Source of the DNA: Pseudohongiella sp.
GTDB lineage: Bacteria; Pseudomonadota; Gammaproteobacteria; Pseudomonadales; Pseudohongiellaceae
Direction: 5' to 3'
DNA: 64,000 nucleotides
Assembly: GCF_011050365.1 (NCBI RefSeq)
Contig: NZ_DRFV01000001.1
Span: 248,001-312,000 of the forward strand
Shown: positions 30,476-35,701 of the stretch, piece after piece
How the letters are laid out: the number at the start of each line of letters is the position of its first letter
How positions within the stretch are numbered: the first letter of the stretch is position 1
Translations under genes and position numbers: made by a program
Notes under the pieces: generated by a model
What the model saw: only the letters and a program-made list of their open reading frames with translations
What the model was told of the DNA's origin: nothing
Databases searched by the model: none

Positions 30476-31360
30476 TCAGGGGCGCATAACCGTGCGTTTA
30501 CTTTCAATCAGCGACCAGATAAAGCCGACGGCAACACCGGCGGTAAAGTCATCTTCAAACAGGGGGCTGTCGCGATTCTCTGCGCCGTGATGGAAACTGG
30601 TTTGCACGCCGGCAAACATGCGCGCCTTGTCGCTGATGTGCCAGGTGCCGGAGAGGTTGATGCCGGTGCCAAAATATCCCGATGCGGCCCGGTACCGGGA
30701 ACGTGAAGCGTTGGCAAACTCAGACTCAACATCGTAGAAGTAGCCATGGACATCCCGCGTCGCCCAGACGGGGCGGATCGAGATTGAGCCTTCAAATTGA
30801 GGCGCAAACAAACCGTAGTGGCGGTAACGCAACATGGGTTCAAAAACATACCCGTGGTGATCGACGCCGGCGAAATCGGTAGAGAGCGCCGCTCGCGCTT
30901 GCAGTGATAACTCAACTTCACTGCGACTGGAGTCGCTGAACTGGAAGTCGGCCAGACCGAATACCAGTTGCGGGCCGATTTCAAAAATAAAGTCCAGGTC
31001 GGGCATGCCGTCGCGCAATTCATTGCCGTCGCTGTCGGCATCAAAGGCGGCGGCAAAAGACAGGGACAGCTCATAAAAACTGTTCTCGGCAGCAACCGCC
31101 CGTGCCACCTGCCCGTCGCCTATGCGCAACACATCGCCTCGATAGACCACATATGGCAGGCCCAGGCCGCGGGATTGATGTTGGGAAGAGCCCGGGTAGT
31201 GTGGCTGAACCAGCGCGCCCGCGCCCAGGCCAAGTTCCCACAACGGTTTCTCCACCAAGACCGGTTCTGTTTCATCGGCGGCTCGAGCCGTCACGGGTAT
31301 GAGTGCAAGTATGGTGAGTAACAAAAACAGGGTGTTGCTGGCAGAATGAGATGCGGTCAT
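30476..31360 (-). CDS. MipA/OmpV family outer membrane protein
   Basis: The 294-residue protein has a Sec signal peptide (cleavage near ARA-ADE) and alternating beta-strands of an outer membrane barrel. The WELGLGAGALVQPHYPGS start and the VYRGDVLRIGDGQ region are typical of MipA/OmpV. MipA scaffolds murein hydrolases in E. coli, while other members are stress-linked porins. It lies 18 bases before the alkC start on the same strand and overlaps the upstream nuclease gene by four bases, suggesting an operon. Confidence 0.88.
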   Translation of the reverse strand: MTASHSASNTLFLLLTILALIPVTARAADETEPVLVEKPLWELGLGAGALVQPHYPGSSQHQSRGLGLPYVVYRGDVLRIGDGQVARAVAAENSFYELSLSFAAAFDADSDGNELRDGMPDLDFIFEIGPQLVFGLADFQFSDSSRSEVELSLQARAALSTDFAGVDHHGYVFEPMLRYRHYGLFAPQFEGSISIRPVWATRDVHGYFYDVESEFANASRSRYRAASGYFGTGINLSGTWHISDKARMFAGVQTSFHHGAENRDSPLFEDDFTAGVAVGFIWSLIESKRTVMRP

Positions 31361-32358
31361 GGTGTTCCACTAATGTTGGCTAAAGTATTGCTGATTCGTA
31401 CGCCCGCTTCGGCCAGACGGATGGCTGCGGTCTGTTTCATGTCAGCCTCATAGTGATGTCTGAGCGTAACACTGTCCAGACGGCTGCCGGTGTTTTCACT
31501 CAGCCTGACGTTTTCAATGATTGAATCGGGGTAGACGTTCTGAAGCAGAATACTGCGACTCTCGTGCAGCCACTGTGTGGGCGTGAATGCCTGGGTCCGG
31601 GGCACACTGGTGGCCAGGGCGTTGAGTGCCATCAGACTGTTATTGAGAGCGGGACCGCGCAGTGCCTGGTCCCACACCGCGTGGAGATTGCTGCCGCGGG
31701 TACGAATGGCATTACCACCGCGATCTCCGTTGGGGAATAGCTGTGACGACACCAGGCCACCGGTGTGCAAGGGCTGATGGATATCGCCAATCAGGTGGAG
31801 CAGCCAGCACAGCGCTATGGCTCTTTGCGCCGCATCGGTTTCGTGCGCGAGTTGCCAGTGTGCCCGTTCCAGCGCAGTCACGACATTGCTGGCGTGGGAA
31901 GCGTGCTGGCTGTTGTTCGCCGGGGCGCCCTGAATATCGGGCTGGGGGGCGGTATCAAGATAAACATTGCCCTGGGTTTGCGCGTCGTCGCGGACCCAGG
32001 CGCCATCTATCCAGTGCCAGTCGGGTTGGTTATAACGGGAACGGATAGCGTCAGGTAGTCCGCGCGCCAGATCCGGCCATACCGCCGCCTGACCCAGTAA
32101 CCAGCGGGATTGTTCCTCACGCGATGCAGCGCGAATGGCTTGGGGCATGGCGTCTGCAAAGTCGGGGGCGTAGCGTGGATGCTGTTGCAAGACGTCGAGC
32201 CAGTAGTCGCGCTGGGGCGCGGTCAGGGTCTGATAGGCAACGTAGGCAGCAAGCCGGTGTCCTGTCGCATCCCAGGCTTGTGACAATGAGGGCAGTGCGA
32301 TGGTGGTCAGCAGGACAATCGTTCGGACGCATGCGGCAAGCGACAATCTGGCTGACAT
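31357..32358 (-). CDS. exported S1/P1-type nuclease
   Basis: The 333-residue protein starts at ATG 32358, five bases after GGGAG, with a signal peptide ending SLSQA. The mature protein would begin WDATGHRL; in S1/P1 nucleases this N-terminal tryptophan is a zinc ligand. Other ligands are visible in WHWIDGAW, LLHLIGDIHQPLH and the GGNAIR..NLHAVWD region. The enzyme should cleave single-stranded DNA or RNA outside the cytoplasm, probably for phosphate or nucleotide scavenging. It overlaps the mipA-like gene by four bases. Confidence 0.93.
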   Translation of the reverse strand: MSARLSLAACVRTIVLLTTIALPSLSQAWDATGHRLAAYVAYQTLTAPQRDYWLDVLQQHPRYAPDFADAMPQAIRAASREEQSRWLLGQAAVWPDLARGLPDAIRSRYNQPDWHWIDGAWVRDDAQTQGNVYLDTAPQPDIQGAPANNSQHASHASNVVTALERAHWQLAHETDAAQRAIALCWLLHLIGDIHQPLHTGGLVSSQLFPNGDRGGNAIRTRGSNLHAVWDQALRGPALNNSLMALNALATSVPRTQAFTPTQWLHESRSILLQNVYPDSIIENVRLSENTGSRLDSVTLRHHYEADMKQTAAIRLAEAGVRISNTLANISGTP

Positions 32359-32442
32359 GACAACTCCCGGATGCAATAAAAAGACAGGCAGAAGTGTAGC
32401 AGAACCAAAGATAGAACTGACAGGCGACGGCTTTGTTGCCGA

Positions 32443-32555
32443 CAAAAAAATGCCCCCGTGACGCCTTGGCATCACGGGGGCTAGATCACCCATCAATGGA
32501 AAAGGGGAGAGTCGATTCCATTTCTAGCACCTGATAGGGGAATATCAGTGCTACG
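32443..32555 (-). ncRNA. predicted sigma-54-dependent small RNA
   Basis: From the predicted start near 32555 the minus-strand RNA of about 112 bases folds into three hairpins. The first pairs TAGCACTGATA with TATCAGGTGCTA (one bulge) around a TTCCCC loop. The second pairs AATGGAA with TTCCATT around a loop containing CTCTCCCC. The third is a 14-bp stem (32452-32465/32468-32481, one G-U pair) followed by seven Ts (32444-32450), a strong intrinsic terminator. The C-rich loops could pair with G-rich ribosome binding sites. It has no credible open frame. Function is unknown. Confidence 0.7.
32444..32481 (-). terminator. intrinsic terminator of the small RNA
   Basis: On the minus strand GCCCCCGTGATGCC and GGCGTCACGGGGGC form a 14-bp stem with one G-U pair, followed by TTTTTTT. 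There is no T-run on the plus strand, so the orientation is clear. No minus-strand protein gene ends here. Confidence 0.88.
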
Positions 32556-32565
32556 TCCAAGATAA

Positions 32566-32582
32566 TGCATTGTGCATGCCAG
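32566..32582 (-). promoter_or_regulatory. sigma-54 promoter of the small RNA
   Basis: The minus strand reads CTGGCATGCACAATGCA, matching the -24/-12 consensus YTGGCACG-N4-TTGCW at most positions with the required 10 bases between GG and GC. The predicted start is 12 bases downstream near 32555, just before the first RNA hairpin. Confidence 0.68.
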
Positions 32583-32719
32583 TTTTTATTACTAATTTTT
32601 ATCTATATGATATAAATAGAAAATAAATATTTTAAAGGTGGGTGGCAGGCGTCCAGACTAGATGTTTGTCATGTCAGCGCTTAGGCTGACGATGCTTTTT
32701 GGCTCTTTTTGGCGATCCT

Positions 32720-32736
32720 TGCACCAGTTTGGCGCG
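32720..32736. promoter_or_regulatory. NtrC-like enhancer site
   Basis: TGCACCAGTTTGGCGCG resembles the NtrC dyad TGCACC-N5-GGTGCA: the left half is perfect, the right half matches 4 of 6. It lies about 165-180 bases upstream of the small RNA start, a normal enhancer distance, with AT-rich DNA between that could be bent by IHF. The regulator identity is inferred. Confidence 0.4.
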
Positions 32737-32793
32737 CGCCCGCCCGTGCAAATGACAGCATAGTGTCACGTTTTACGTTTCAGGAAATATTTT

Positions 32794-33198
32794 ATGAGTA
32801 ATTTTGTAATTCAACCGGCTGAAGTTGAATTGACAGCCATCAGGGCGCAAGGCTCTGGTGGCCAGAATGTCAATAAGGTGTCAACTGCCATTCATTTACG
32901 CTTCGACGTGCAGGCCTCGTCACTGCCTGCTGACATCAAGGCCCTGGTGCTGGCGCAGCGCGACCGGCGCATGACCAGTGATGGCGTGATTGTCATCAAG
33001 GCTCAGCGCTTCAGGACGCAGGAAAAAAATCGTGAAGACGCGCTGCGGCGTCTGCAGGCTCTGATTGCGGATGCCGCGCATACCGATGCCCCACGGCGGC
33101 CCACTCGCGTGCCGCGCTCGGCCAAGCGTAAGCGACTGGAAGGTAAGCGTAAACTCAGTACCACCAAATCTTTGCGAGGCAAACCGAGTCCGGAATGA
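32794..33198 (+). CDS. arfB: alternative ribosome-rescue factor ArfB
   Basis: The 134-residue protein has the release-factor GGQ motif near its N-terminus ([15 protein letters not shown] at residues 22-24) and a basic C-terminal tail ([18 protein letters not shown]) that enters the empty mRNA channel. It hydrolyses peptidyl-tRNA on stalled non-stop ribosomes. The length and layout match ArfB/YaeJ. It is cytoplasmic and appears monocistronic or shared with the VOC gene 34 bases downstream. Confidence 0.95.
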
Positions 33199-33232
33199 CT
33201 ACAATACGCCAAACCTTCACGAGGCTGAGAGC

Positions 33233-33673
33233 ATGACGTCAACATTAAAACCATTTCATCTCGCCATCCAGGTGCGCGATCTGGAAGAGGCGCGCGAATT
33301 TTACGGCAATACTCTGGGTTTGCCGCAGGGACGCAGTTCTGATCACTGGATCGACTTCAATCTGTTTGGCCACCAACTGGTGGTGCATGTGAACCCTGCC
33401 ATCGGCAAACAGGGCCAGGTAAATCAGAGCAGCAATCATGTTGACGGCCATGGCGTGCCTGTGCCCCACTTTGGGGCGGTGCTGTCGATGACAGAGTGGG
33501 GCGCGCTGGCAGAGAAGCTGCGCGCTGTAGGCACCCACTTCATCATTGAGCCGTATATTCGATTTAAGGGCGAGCCCGGCGAACAGGCGACTCTTTTTTT
33601 CCTTGATCCAACAGGCAATGCGCTTGAATTCAAGGCGTTCAGGGACATAGACGCACAACTGTTTGCCGTCTGA
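33233..33673 (+). CDS. VOC-family (glyoxalase-fold) protein
   Basis: The 146-residue protein starts at ATG 33233 with [23 protein letters not shown], the first beta-alpha-beta module of the vicinal oxygen chelate fold. The histidine in that segment, [13 protein letters not shown] and the late glutamate in NALEFKAF are possible metal ligands. The family includes glyoxalases and extradiol dioxygenases; this member is most like uncharacterised dioxygenase-type VOC proteins. The longer frame from 33065 overlaps arfB and is not supported. Confidence 0.85.
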
Positions 33674-33730
33674 TCGTCCAGCAGCCGGGAACGGGTCTTG
33701 CCAGCTAAACACGACACTATGAGAGTAATT

Positions 33731-34864
33731 ATGCGAATCGGGAAGCTGTGTTTTTTTTTACTTCTGTGCAGCAGCACTGCGTGGGCGAATGACAACGATC
33801 CGCGCGCACGCGAGGCAGGGGTTGCCCCGGGTATATATGAGCCCGGAACCCACAACGCCATTACTGACGTCGCCGGTGTTCGTGTCGGGCATGTGTCGAT
33901 TGTCGAAGCGGACGGTGTGCGCACGGGTGTTACCGCGATTCTGCCACATGGCGGCAACCTGTATCAGGACAAGGTGCCGGCAGGATTCTCGCAAGGCAAC
34001 GGCTACGGGAAAATGATGGGCACGACCCAGATCATGGAATTGGGCGAGGTCGAAACACCGATTTTGCTGACCAATACCCTCTCGGTGCCGGAAGCGGCCG
34101 CCGGTGTCATCGCGTGGACGCTGGCACAAGCCGGCAACGAAACGGTGCGGTCAGTGAACGCTGTTGTCGGTGAGACCAATGATGGCCGTATCAACAATAT
34201 CCGTTTGCGGGCGGTGCAGCCACAGCACGCGTTGGATGCGATTGTGGCAGCACGACCGGGACCGGTAGCGGAAGGCAGCGTTGGCGCGGGCATGGGTACG
34301 GTCAGTTTTGGCTGGAAAGGTGGTATCGGCACCAGCTCGCGGGTGCTACCGGACAATGACGGTGGCTTTACCGTGGGTGTACTGGTGCAGACCAACTATG
34401 GCGGTGAGTTAACGATAATGGGCACACCCGTGCGCCCGCAGGATATACATGTCGTCGGCGATCCGGTGGCGTCTGCCACCAGCCCGGACGGTTCGGTGAT
34501 GATTATCATCGCGACCGATGCACCGTTGTCCGATCGCAATCTTGAGCGTCTGGCGGCACGCTCGTTTCTTGGCATCGGCCGCACCGGCTCGGCCATGTCC
34601 AATGGCTCGGGCGATTATGCGCTGGCTTTTTCTACTGCGGAAGGTGTCCGGCGCAACACCTTTCGACGTGAGCAGTTACATACCCTGGAAGACTGGCCGA
34701 ATGAGAATATGACGCCGTTGTTTCAGGCTATTGTGGAAGCCACTGAGGAAGCTGTCTATAACGCCTTGTTCAAAGCCAGCGATGTTGATGGCATCAACAA
34801 CGGGCAGTATCCGGCCATTCCTGTCCAGCAGGTCCTGCGCTTGCTGCAGCGCACTGTGCCTTGA
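33731..34864 (+). CDS. exported P1-family (DmpA-like, S58) peptidase
   Basis: The protein has about 377 residues with a Sec signal peptide (cleavage near AWA-ND) and the P1/DmpA aminopeptidase domain, shown by NAITDVAGVRVGHVSI, VVGETNDGRINNIR and the self-processing region WKGGIGTSSRVLP, where a serine becomes the N-terminal nucleophile of the beta chain. The frame also opens at 33698 and ATG 33719; ATG 33731 follows GAGAG and begins the signal peptide directly. Such enzymes are beta-aminopeptidases or D-aminopeptidases. Confidence 0.88.
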   Translation: MRIGKLCFFLLLCSSTAWANDNDPRAREAGVAPGIYEPGTHNAITDVAGVRVGHVSIVEADGVRTGVTAILPHGGNLYQDKVPAGFSQGNGYGKMMGTTQIMELGEVETPILLTNTLSVPEAAAGVIAWTLAQAGNETVRSVNAVVGETNDGRINNIRLRAVQPQHALDAIVAARPGPVAEGSVGAGMGTVSFGWKGGIGTSSRVLPDNDGGFTVGVLVQTNYGGELTIMGTPVRPQDIHVVGDPVASATSPDGSVMIIIATDAPLSDRNLERLAARSFLGIGRTGSAMSNGSGDYALAFSTAEGVRRNTFRREQLHTLEDWPNENMTPLFQAIVEATEEAVYNALFKASDVDGINNGQYPAIPVQQVLRLLQRTVP

Positions 34865-35038: not shown

Positions 35039-35055
35039 CTGGCATGACGGTTGCA
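35039..35055 (+). promoter_or_regulatory. sigma-54 promoter of the outer membrane protein gene
   Basis: CTGGCATGACGGTTGCA matches the sigma-54 consensus YTGGCACG-N4-TTGCW at all but one defined position, with correct GG-N10-GC spacing. The predicted start near 35066 leaves a leader of about 69 bases before the ATG at 35135. Confidence 0.8.
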
Positions 35056-35134: not shown

Positions 35135-35701
35135 ATGAAAAGAACGACATTCCAAACCCTTTGTGTCATCGCAGGCCTGACCGCAGGTACCTACTCCACA
35201 GCATTGCTGGCAAACGAAACCGGTCCGTACGTCGGCGGCTCGCTTGGCCTGGTCAGCGTGGATGACAGTGAATTCGATGATGACAACAATGCATCCCGGT
35301 TGTTTGCCGGTTGGCAGATCAATCCCTATTTCGGCATTGAGGGTGGTTACACTGACTTCGGCGAATTCGGTGGTGACCTGGCCCGTTCTGACATCGACGG
35401 CTACAGCCTTGCTGCGACCGGTCGCCTGCCGCTGACTGACAGCTTCGCGCTGATAGCCAAAGCGGGGCGATTCTGGTGGGACAGTGATGTTCGGGTCGGT
35501 TCTTTCAGTGATCGGTTTAGCGGAAACGAGCTGACTTACGGTGTCGGGGCGCAATTCAGCATCACCGAGAGTCTGGCTCTGCAGGTGGCCTATGATCGAC
35601 TGGATGTTGATCTGGACCGCAATGAAATAGGTCCGATTGCCGGCGCTGATTTCGACTCCCGGGTCGATGTACTGTCAGCAGGCCTGAAATTCACATTCTG
35701 A
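35135..35701 (+). CDS. outer membrane beta-barrel protein (OmpA-like barrel)
   Basis: The 188-residue protein has a Sec signal peptide (cleavage near LLA-NE), then GPYVGGSLGLVSVDD and a series of amphipathic strands typical of a small eight-stranded barrel (OmpA/opacity-type domain). It ends with phenylalanine (GLKFTF), the usual outer membrane assembly signal. AGGAG lies 6 bases before the ATG. It has no peptidoglycan-binding OmpA C-domain. The near-perfect sigma-54 promoter upstream implies expression under a specific activator. Confidence 0.87.
   Translation: MKRTTFQTLCVIAGLTAGTYSTALLANETGPYVGGSLGLVSVDDSEFDDDNNASRLFAGWQINPYFGIEGGYTDFGEFGGDLARSDIDGYSLAATGRLPLTDSFALIAKAGRFWWDSDVRVGSFSDRFSGNELTYGVGAQFSITESLALQVAYDRLDVDLDRNEIGPIAGADFDSRVDVLSAGLKFTF

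Follow-up and report, generated by a model that had tools for sequence, protein, structure and literature searches.

A conserved small RNA in Pseudohongiella with a predicted NtrC/sigma-54 promoter and a porin-like gene as candidate target

What is transcribed from an intergenic region whose minus strand shows, in this order, an NtrC-type dyad, AT-rich DNA, a sigma-54 element, a pair of hairpins and a terminator? The region lies in a 64,000-nucleotide stretch of a Pseudohongiella genome of 3.63 Mb (the window; positions 248001-312000 of contig C1), between an ArfB-like gene on the plus strand and an S1/P1 nuclease gene on the minus strand. Comparison with related genomes suggests that it encodes a member of a real, conserved regulatory RNA family that is of a known kind and has no match in Rfam. 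The reading that we favor, and consider fairly probable, is that of a free-standing RNA of about 112 nucleotides (nt), activated by NtrC and sigma-54, whose second loop would block translation of a porin-like gene.

The case for a conserved RNA begins with its distribution. A 166-base query found one match in each of the 15 genomes of the window's own genus (g1), and matched 17 of 137 family genomes altogether; G033, from another genus, was accepted, and L018 (G110) was dropped as an apparent coding sequence with the promoter missing. A covariance model of hairpin 1, hairpin 2 and the terminator (R2) found the RNA in 27 of 136 family genomes (15 in g1, one in g5, ten in the sister genus g6 and one in g8), the other 109 giving no match. 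Both the hairpins and the promoter are conserved, as the preliminary description had expected of related genomes. Second model matches in G043 (L049) and G033 (L037, 914-995) were dropped for a missing promoter or structure. Model R3 matched 12 of 390 genomes of the order, seven of them from g1 and one, G127 (g8), credible; three matches in family f42 resemble ANTAR nitrate leaders with one hexaloop each, and one in f16 is apparently due to chance. Across the class, R3 matched three of 369 genomes, with the window's genome as the sole credible match. Because the filters were strict, weak relatives may be missed in the order and class searches. Rfam 15 gave no match at the gathering threshold in the window, and in a relaxed search of 32380-32780 (401 bases) the match with the best E-value scored 22.5 bits, short of the gathering score of 42. 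We found no paper on this RNA in a literature search with sparse coverage of subscription journals.

Sequence, structure and covariation together define the RNA at 32444-32555 (minus strand, ends predicted). The segment 32444-32560 folds at -48.4 kcal/mol (z = -4.45), and none of 200 shuffled sequences did as well. Hairpin 1 (32525-32553) has the loop UUCCCC, and all 11 of its modeled pairs show two-sided changes. Hairpin 2 (32495-32522) bears a 14-nt loop, UCGACUCUCCCCUU, with the conserved core and proposed seed CUCUCCCC, which is exact in 23 of the 27 loci and varies in L037, L039, L044 and L045. A linker conserved in the alignment, GAUGGGUGAUCUA (32482-32494), leads into an intrinsic terminator at 32444-32481, with its stem at 32481-32452 and its T-run at 32450-32444. 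Two details of the preliminary description need correction. The terminator and its seven Ts stand, with a stem of 13 pairs rather than 14 (the 14-nt arms are 93% complementary). The two hairpins also stand, but their CCCC loops are not equivalent, since the conserved core is in loop 2, and the CCCC of loop 1, present in 14 of the 15 g1 genomes, is missing from G002 and from most g6 loci. The stem of hairpin 2 changes, by compensating substitutions, from AAUGGAA/UUCCAUU in g1 to GCGGAUC/GAUCCGC-like in g6, with the C-rich loop kept.

Alignment A4 (27 rows, 26 distinct) had been fitted to the structure of the model. Of its cells, 91.4% were paired, and 20 of 26 pairs showed two-sided changes, compared to an average of 14.2 in shuffles and 6-11 pairs in slid structures. 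Rows L044 and L048 had been misplaced by the model and were excluded from alignment A5; the promoter and C-rich loop are visible in both. In a hand alignment of hairpin 1 from 16 sequences, 171 of 192 cells were paired, and among ten sequences tested singly its fold was weak in two (G014 and G033). An RNAalifold consensus of alignment A1 lacked hairpin 1, because the MAFFT register varies between subgroups, and paired loop 1 with the GGGUGA linker; it was rejected and replaced by the manual check of hairpin 1 and the structure given above.

The promoter is conserved along with the RNA. A sigma-54 -24/-12 element, TGGCATGCACAATGCA (32566-32581, minus strand), with a predicted +1 near 32555, is present in all 27 loci and is one of two exact consensus matches in the window. 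The element alone is not significant, because the pattern with one mismatch allowed has five matches in the window against 6.3 expected. Upstream of it lies an NtrC-type enhancer dyad, GCGCCAAACTGGTGC (32721-32735, minus strand), supported by pattern matching and by the 27-locus comparison, to which NtrC is predicted to bind. When the 64-kb window was scanned against the consensus GCRCCANNNTGGTGC, this was the sole match with zero mismatches; imperfect matches are common, given that 41 were found with up to two mismatches against 24.7 expected. Both elements had been described previously from the sequence, and both readings hold. An NtrC-like site with one to four mismatches in 14 positions, taken as the best site 40-300 bp upstream and scored against the NtrC-type dyad consensus, occurs in 27 of 27 loci. 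Its start is 154-156 bp from the -24 element in 12 loci, 10 of which are among the 15 of g1, and 99-289 bp from it elsewhere; at 19 loci no more than nine dinucleotide shuffles out of 200 equal it. Among 16 aligned sequences, most have a TGGTGC-like half-site upstream and all have the sigma-54 element. A second conserved upstream block of the AAGANCCAAAA type (32690-32708, minus strand), about 30 bp from the dyad center in the alignment and degenerate in G002, G014 and G033, may be another, weak NtrC site. Sites that resemble terminators are, taken together, likewise near chance (four against 2.6 expected in 31400-33900). What counts is the combination of elements and not any single motif, because the combination is kept in 15 of 15 genomes of the genus.

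Such an RNA could act on its own or as part of the transcript that follows it. The strongest rival explanation is that it is a 5' leader or attenuator, in which sigma-54 transcripts stop at the terminator unless antiterminated, and read-through expresses the nuclease in the window and nitrate genes in g6. We regard this as unlikely. The sister genus provides evidence for it. At seven g6 loci (G034, G035, G038, G039, G044, G045 and G047), the next long open reading frame (ORF) on the same strand is nrtA-like and starts 10-53 nt past the terminator, with no extended -10 in between (TAAATT or TAATTT occurs in two). There the RNA is flanked by NasS-like (just upstream) and NrtA-like proteins (the PF13379 Pfam check of these flanks covered G034 only), and the same strand encodes an ANTAR protein (NasT) 1.4-1.5 kb upstream. 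The RNA in G043, G046 and G036 precedes a molybdopterin nitrate-reductase-like gene, with TAGAAT between them (Pfam: G046 only). In part of g6, the RNA is therefore best read from its gene neighborhood as a nitrate-operon leader. The conserved GGG of the linker, which could pair with the terminator CCC or with loop 1, would also suit an attenuator.

Within g1, the evidence points the other way. The nuclease gene has its own likely promoter, the extended -10 TGCTACACT (32393-32401, minus strand), conserved in g1. When the 160 nt that follow the terminator are searched, 14 of the 15 g1 genomes show the pattern TGnTAnnnT, 3-148 nt past the end of the RNA (as TGATAAGAT in G014); about 12.5% of shuffled 160-nt stretches contain one by chance. 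For this reason the RNA in g1 looks free-standing. A search for ANTAR proteins in 23 genomes (G036 not included) was positive in 14, and none was found in the RNA carriers G005, G006, G014, G033, G100, G043 and G046, which is weak evidence where genomes are incomplete; G005, G006 and G014, however, are 99-100% complete and retain the RNA. The near-invariant loop also seems to exceed the apparent need of a nuclease leader. The window's genome does encode NasR (NIT and ANTAR domains) and has, before its nrtA, an ANTAR-type leader with two A1/G4 hexaloops. The window RNA lacks these, so it is not that nitrate leader.

Further elements were seen in the course of this comparison. In L064 (~12170-12020, minus strand), an ANTAR-type nitrate leader with two A1/G4 hexaloops and a sigma-54 element precedes nrtA, with NasR (NIT-ANTAR) nearby. 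In G033 (L074, 914-995, minus strand), an ANTAR-like P2 hairpin and a terminator lie about 280 nt upstream of the RNA, and no ANTAR protein was found in that genome. In L077, L078 and L079, from another family of the order, an ORF of 430-434 amino acids is preceded by a leader that combines a sigma-54-like element with one A1/G4 hexaloop and a terminator.

It is conceivable that one RNA module has adopted two lifestyles, serving in g6 as the leader of a nitrate operon, where C-rich hairpins accompany one ANTAR-like hairpin, and in g1 as a free-standing, NtrC-induced, trans-acting RNA that silences an outer-membrane pore. We offer this conjecture tentatively, as a real possibility that falls short of being probable. 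If true, a regulatory leader would have become a small RNA, or a small RNA a leader, and the loop would have outlasted the rewriting of both hairpin stems.

We looked for a partner of the conserved loop in g1. The pattern AAGGGGAGAG, the exact 10-base complement of CUCUCCCCUU, has 29 sites in the 15 genomes, 14 of which are the RNA gene itself. Of the 15 outside sites, six are followed at 4-10 nt by the start of a long ORF and nine are not; the six comprise two porin-like genes, two TonB-receptor-like genes and two with a lipoprotein-like N-terminus. The two porin sites, in G005 and G011, are the Shine-Dalgarno sequence of a single porin-like gene, which has relatives in 14 of the 15 g1 genomes. 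We computed duplex energies of loop 2 with the start region of the main copy in 13 genomes, scoring each gene, target or background, from whichever start codon gave the best energy. Ten of the 13 porin start regions reached -16.0 to -18.7 kcal/mol, compared to a best of -14.3 and none at -16.0 among 251 background genes, all sampled from G000; these energies ignore mRNA structure. The mean over 16 regions was -13.9, a value reached by 2 of 1000 shuffled seeds. G005 and G011 had served to find the candidate, and 8 of the 11 other genomes pass. Second porin copies in G009, G010 and G012 gave -11.0 to -12.0. The earlier proposal that C-rich loops pair with G-rich ribosome binding sites thus survives as a prediction for one candidate gene in 10 of 13 genomes; that both loops do so alike is not supported.

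Judged by Pfam matches that are for the most part weak, the candidate itself looks like an outer-membrane barrel: at E <= 1, OMP_b-brl matched 7 of 10 members and Porin_4 2 of 10, with a best value of 1.6e-6. A search by sequence for a relative in PDB gave chance-level rows or none. Upstream of the porin-like gene in L128 (upstream of 10464, minus strand) are TGTCAC/TGTCAT direct repeats with 11-bp spacing, which we take to resemble a Pho box. The TonB-receptor-like genes with an exact loop complement at their start (L104/L095) are in G012 (Plug domain, Pfam) and G014 (by eye).

Several results weigh against a porin target under NtrC control. The exact loop complement is not enriched genome-wide, since the 15 sites outside the RNA gene compare with 21 for the reversed pattern in the same 15 genomes. 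The porin-like gene was not found in G002, and the G004 copy is cut off and unscored. Its site is weak (-3.7 to -7.6 kcal/mol) in G006, G012 and G013, and the true porin start of G013 may lie upstream of the range scanned. The reversed loop gave a mean of -11.0 against -13.9, so a strong purine-rich start alone could give part of the signal, and the 10 passing genomes are related and therefore provide fewer independent observations. At E 1e-10, no porin was found in 21 genomes of other genera, 13 of them RNA carriers, which means that the porin cannot explain the whole RNA family. As for the promoter, in 8 of 27 loci the NtrC-like site was matched by 10-30 of 200 shuffles and is weak when considered alone.

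With these points taken into account, a free-standing RNA acting on the porin remains our preferred reading for g1. We postulate that under nitrogen shortage, NtrC in its phosphorylated form would bind about 155 bp upstream and switch on the sigma-54 promoter, as the conserved sites suggest. The RNA would stop at its own terminator with the loop CUCUCCCC exposed. This loop would pair, probably with the assistance of Hfq, with the Shine-Dalgarno sequence AGGGGAGA of the porin-like outer-membrane gene, and pairing there is predicted to block porin translation. NtrC was above the NCBI cut-off in 13 of 15 g1 genomes, the exceptions being G004 (72% complete) and G009 (match split over two contigs), and Hfq in 14 of 15 (G009 excepted). 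We infer the induction, the pairing within the cell, the part played by Hfq and the direction of regulation, and the chain from NtrC through the RNA to the porin is a prediction. Such a chain would be a specific link between the nitrogen status of a non-model gammaproteobacterium and the permeability of its outer membrane, and the family would offer a means of studying the leader-to-small-RNA transition, or its reverse, across sister genera.

Less well supported than a leader is a sponge or decoy RNA that binds a protein (e.g. NasR/NasT or a C-rich-RNA binder) instead of an mRNA, which we consider improbable. All 15 g1 RNAs could form a 3-bp hairpin with the hexaloop AUUGAU (A1, G4), and seven g6 RNAs have one ANTAR-like P2 hairpin, GGGU[AAUGUR]GCCC. 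However, the AUUGAU hexaloop overlaps hairpin 2, the two-hairpin ANTAR motif of the genus's nrtA leaders (controls L064, L066 and L067) is absent from the window RNA, and NasR/NasT was not found in some RNA carriers. Still less probable is an RNA that encodes an 11-amino-acid peptide, either as a leader peptide or as a dual-function RNA. An 11-codon ORF, MESTLPFSIDG, lies within hairpin 2 in the window (32521-32486, minus strand), and MExTLPFSIDG is open in 13 of 15 g1 genomes. However, codon 3 is TAG in G004 and G006, G004 also has a one-base insertion, and the ATGGAA start is missing from the g6 and g8 RNAs. In the other 13 genomes, codon 3 alone varies, with no synonymous change elsewhere, indicating constraint at the RNA level. 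A functionless chance cluster of weak motifs, for which the near-chance frequency of single motifs in the window could be argued, is scarcely credible given conservation and covariation over 27 loci in four genera and is contradicted by the pair changes in A4.

The neighbors of the RNA gene are outside the RNA itself. The divergent ArfB-like gene (32794-33198, plus strand) encodes an RF-1 domain (PF00472, E 4.6e-22), and the S1/P1 nuclease gene (31357-32358, minus strand, start 32358) matches PF02265 (E 8.6e-34). The other exact sigma-54 match in the window, TGGCATGACGGTTGCA at 35040-35055 (plus strand), lies about 80 bp 5' of ORF 35135-35701, whose product by eye resembles a small outer-membrane barrel protein.

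How does this RNA compare with known nitrogen-linked RNAs? The published accounts of NrsZ in Pseudomonas aeruginosa describe a nitrogen-regulated small RNA whose promoter needs NtrB/C and RpoN (PMC9308961, PMC8395346). It is about 226 nt long and processed, lies in the ntrC-PA5126 spacer, carries the motif ACAGGCAG and activates rhlA (PMC9308961, PMC8395346). The window RNA would be of the same nitrogen-regulated kind with an NtrC/RpoN-type promoter, predicted in its case from conserved sites. Unlike NrsZ as so described, it has a predicted length of about 112 nt and C-rich loops, lacks ACAGGCAG, and is not adjacent to ntrC, being on C1 while the NtrC gene over the cut-off is on C11. The NfeR1/alpha-r14 RNAs of Sinorhizobium are nitrogen-linked and have hairpin loops complementary to Shine-Dalgarno sequences (PMC10746234). 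By that account they have three hairpins, each with CCUCCUCCC, whereas the window RNA has one CUCUCCCC core and, in contrast to NfeR1, a sigma-54 promoter that would respond to NtrC. NcS25 of Burkholderia is perfectly complementary over 7 nt to the Shine-Dalgarno sequence of a porin (PMC10117139). Complementarity of that sort is predicted for the window RNA as well, but NcS25 is described as constitutively expressed with no upstream sigma-54 motif (PMC10117139), which sets it apart as a different RNA.

The ANTAR (NasR/NasT) nitrate leaders (PMC7496416, PMC3795266) resemble this family in having two hairpins followed by a terminator, and the RNAs of seven g6 genomes also share their position before nrtA. 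Sigma-54 elements occur in the nrtA leaders of the window's genus as well. Compared with such leaders, the window RNA lacks the two A1/G4 hexaloop hairpins with C:G closing pairs, both of which are present in the controls L064, L066 and L067, and it precedes an S1/P1 nuclease gene instead of a nitrate operon. From these sequence features, the window RNA is not NrsZ, nor does it amount to a complete ANTAR leader. The comparison supports the earlier suggestion of a distinct RNA with a sigma-54 promoter and an NtrC-type site, and shows it to be conserved and different from NrsZ.
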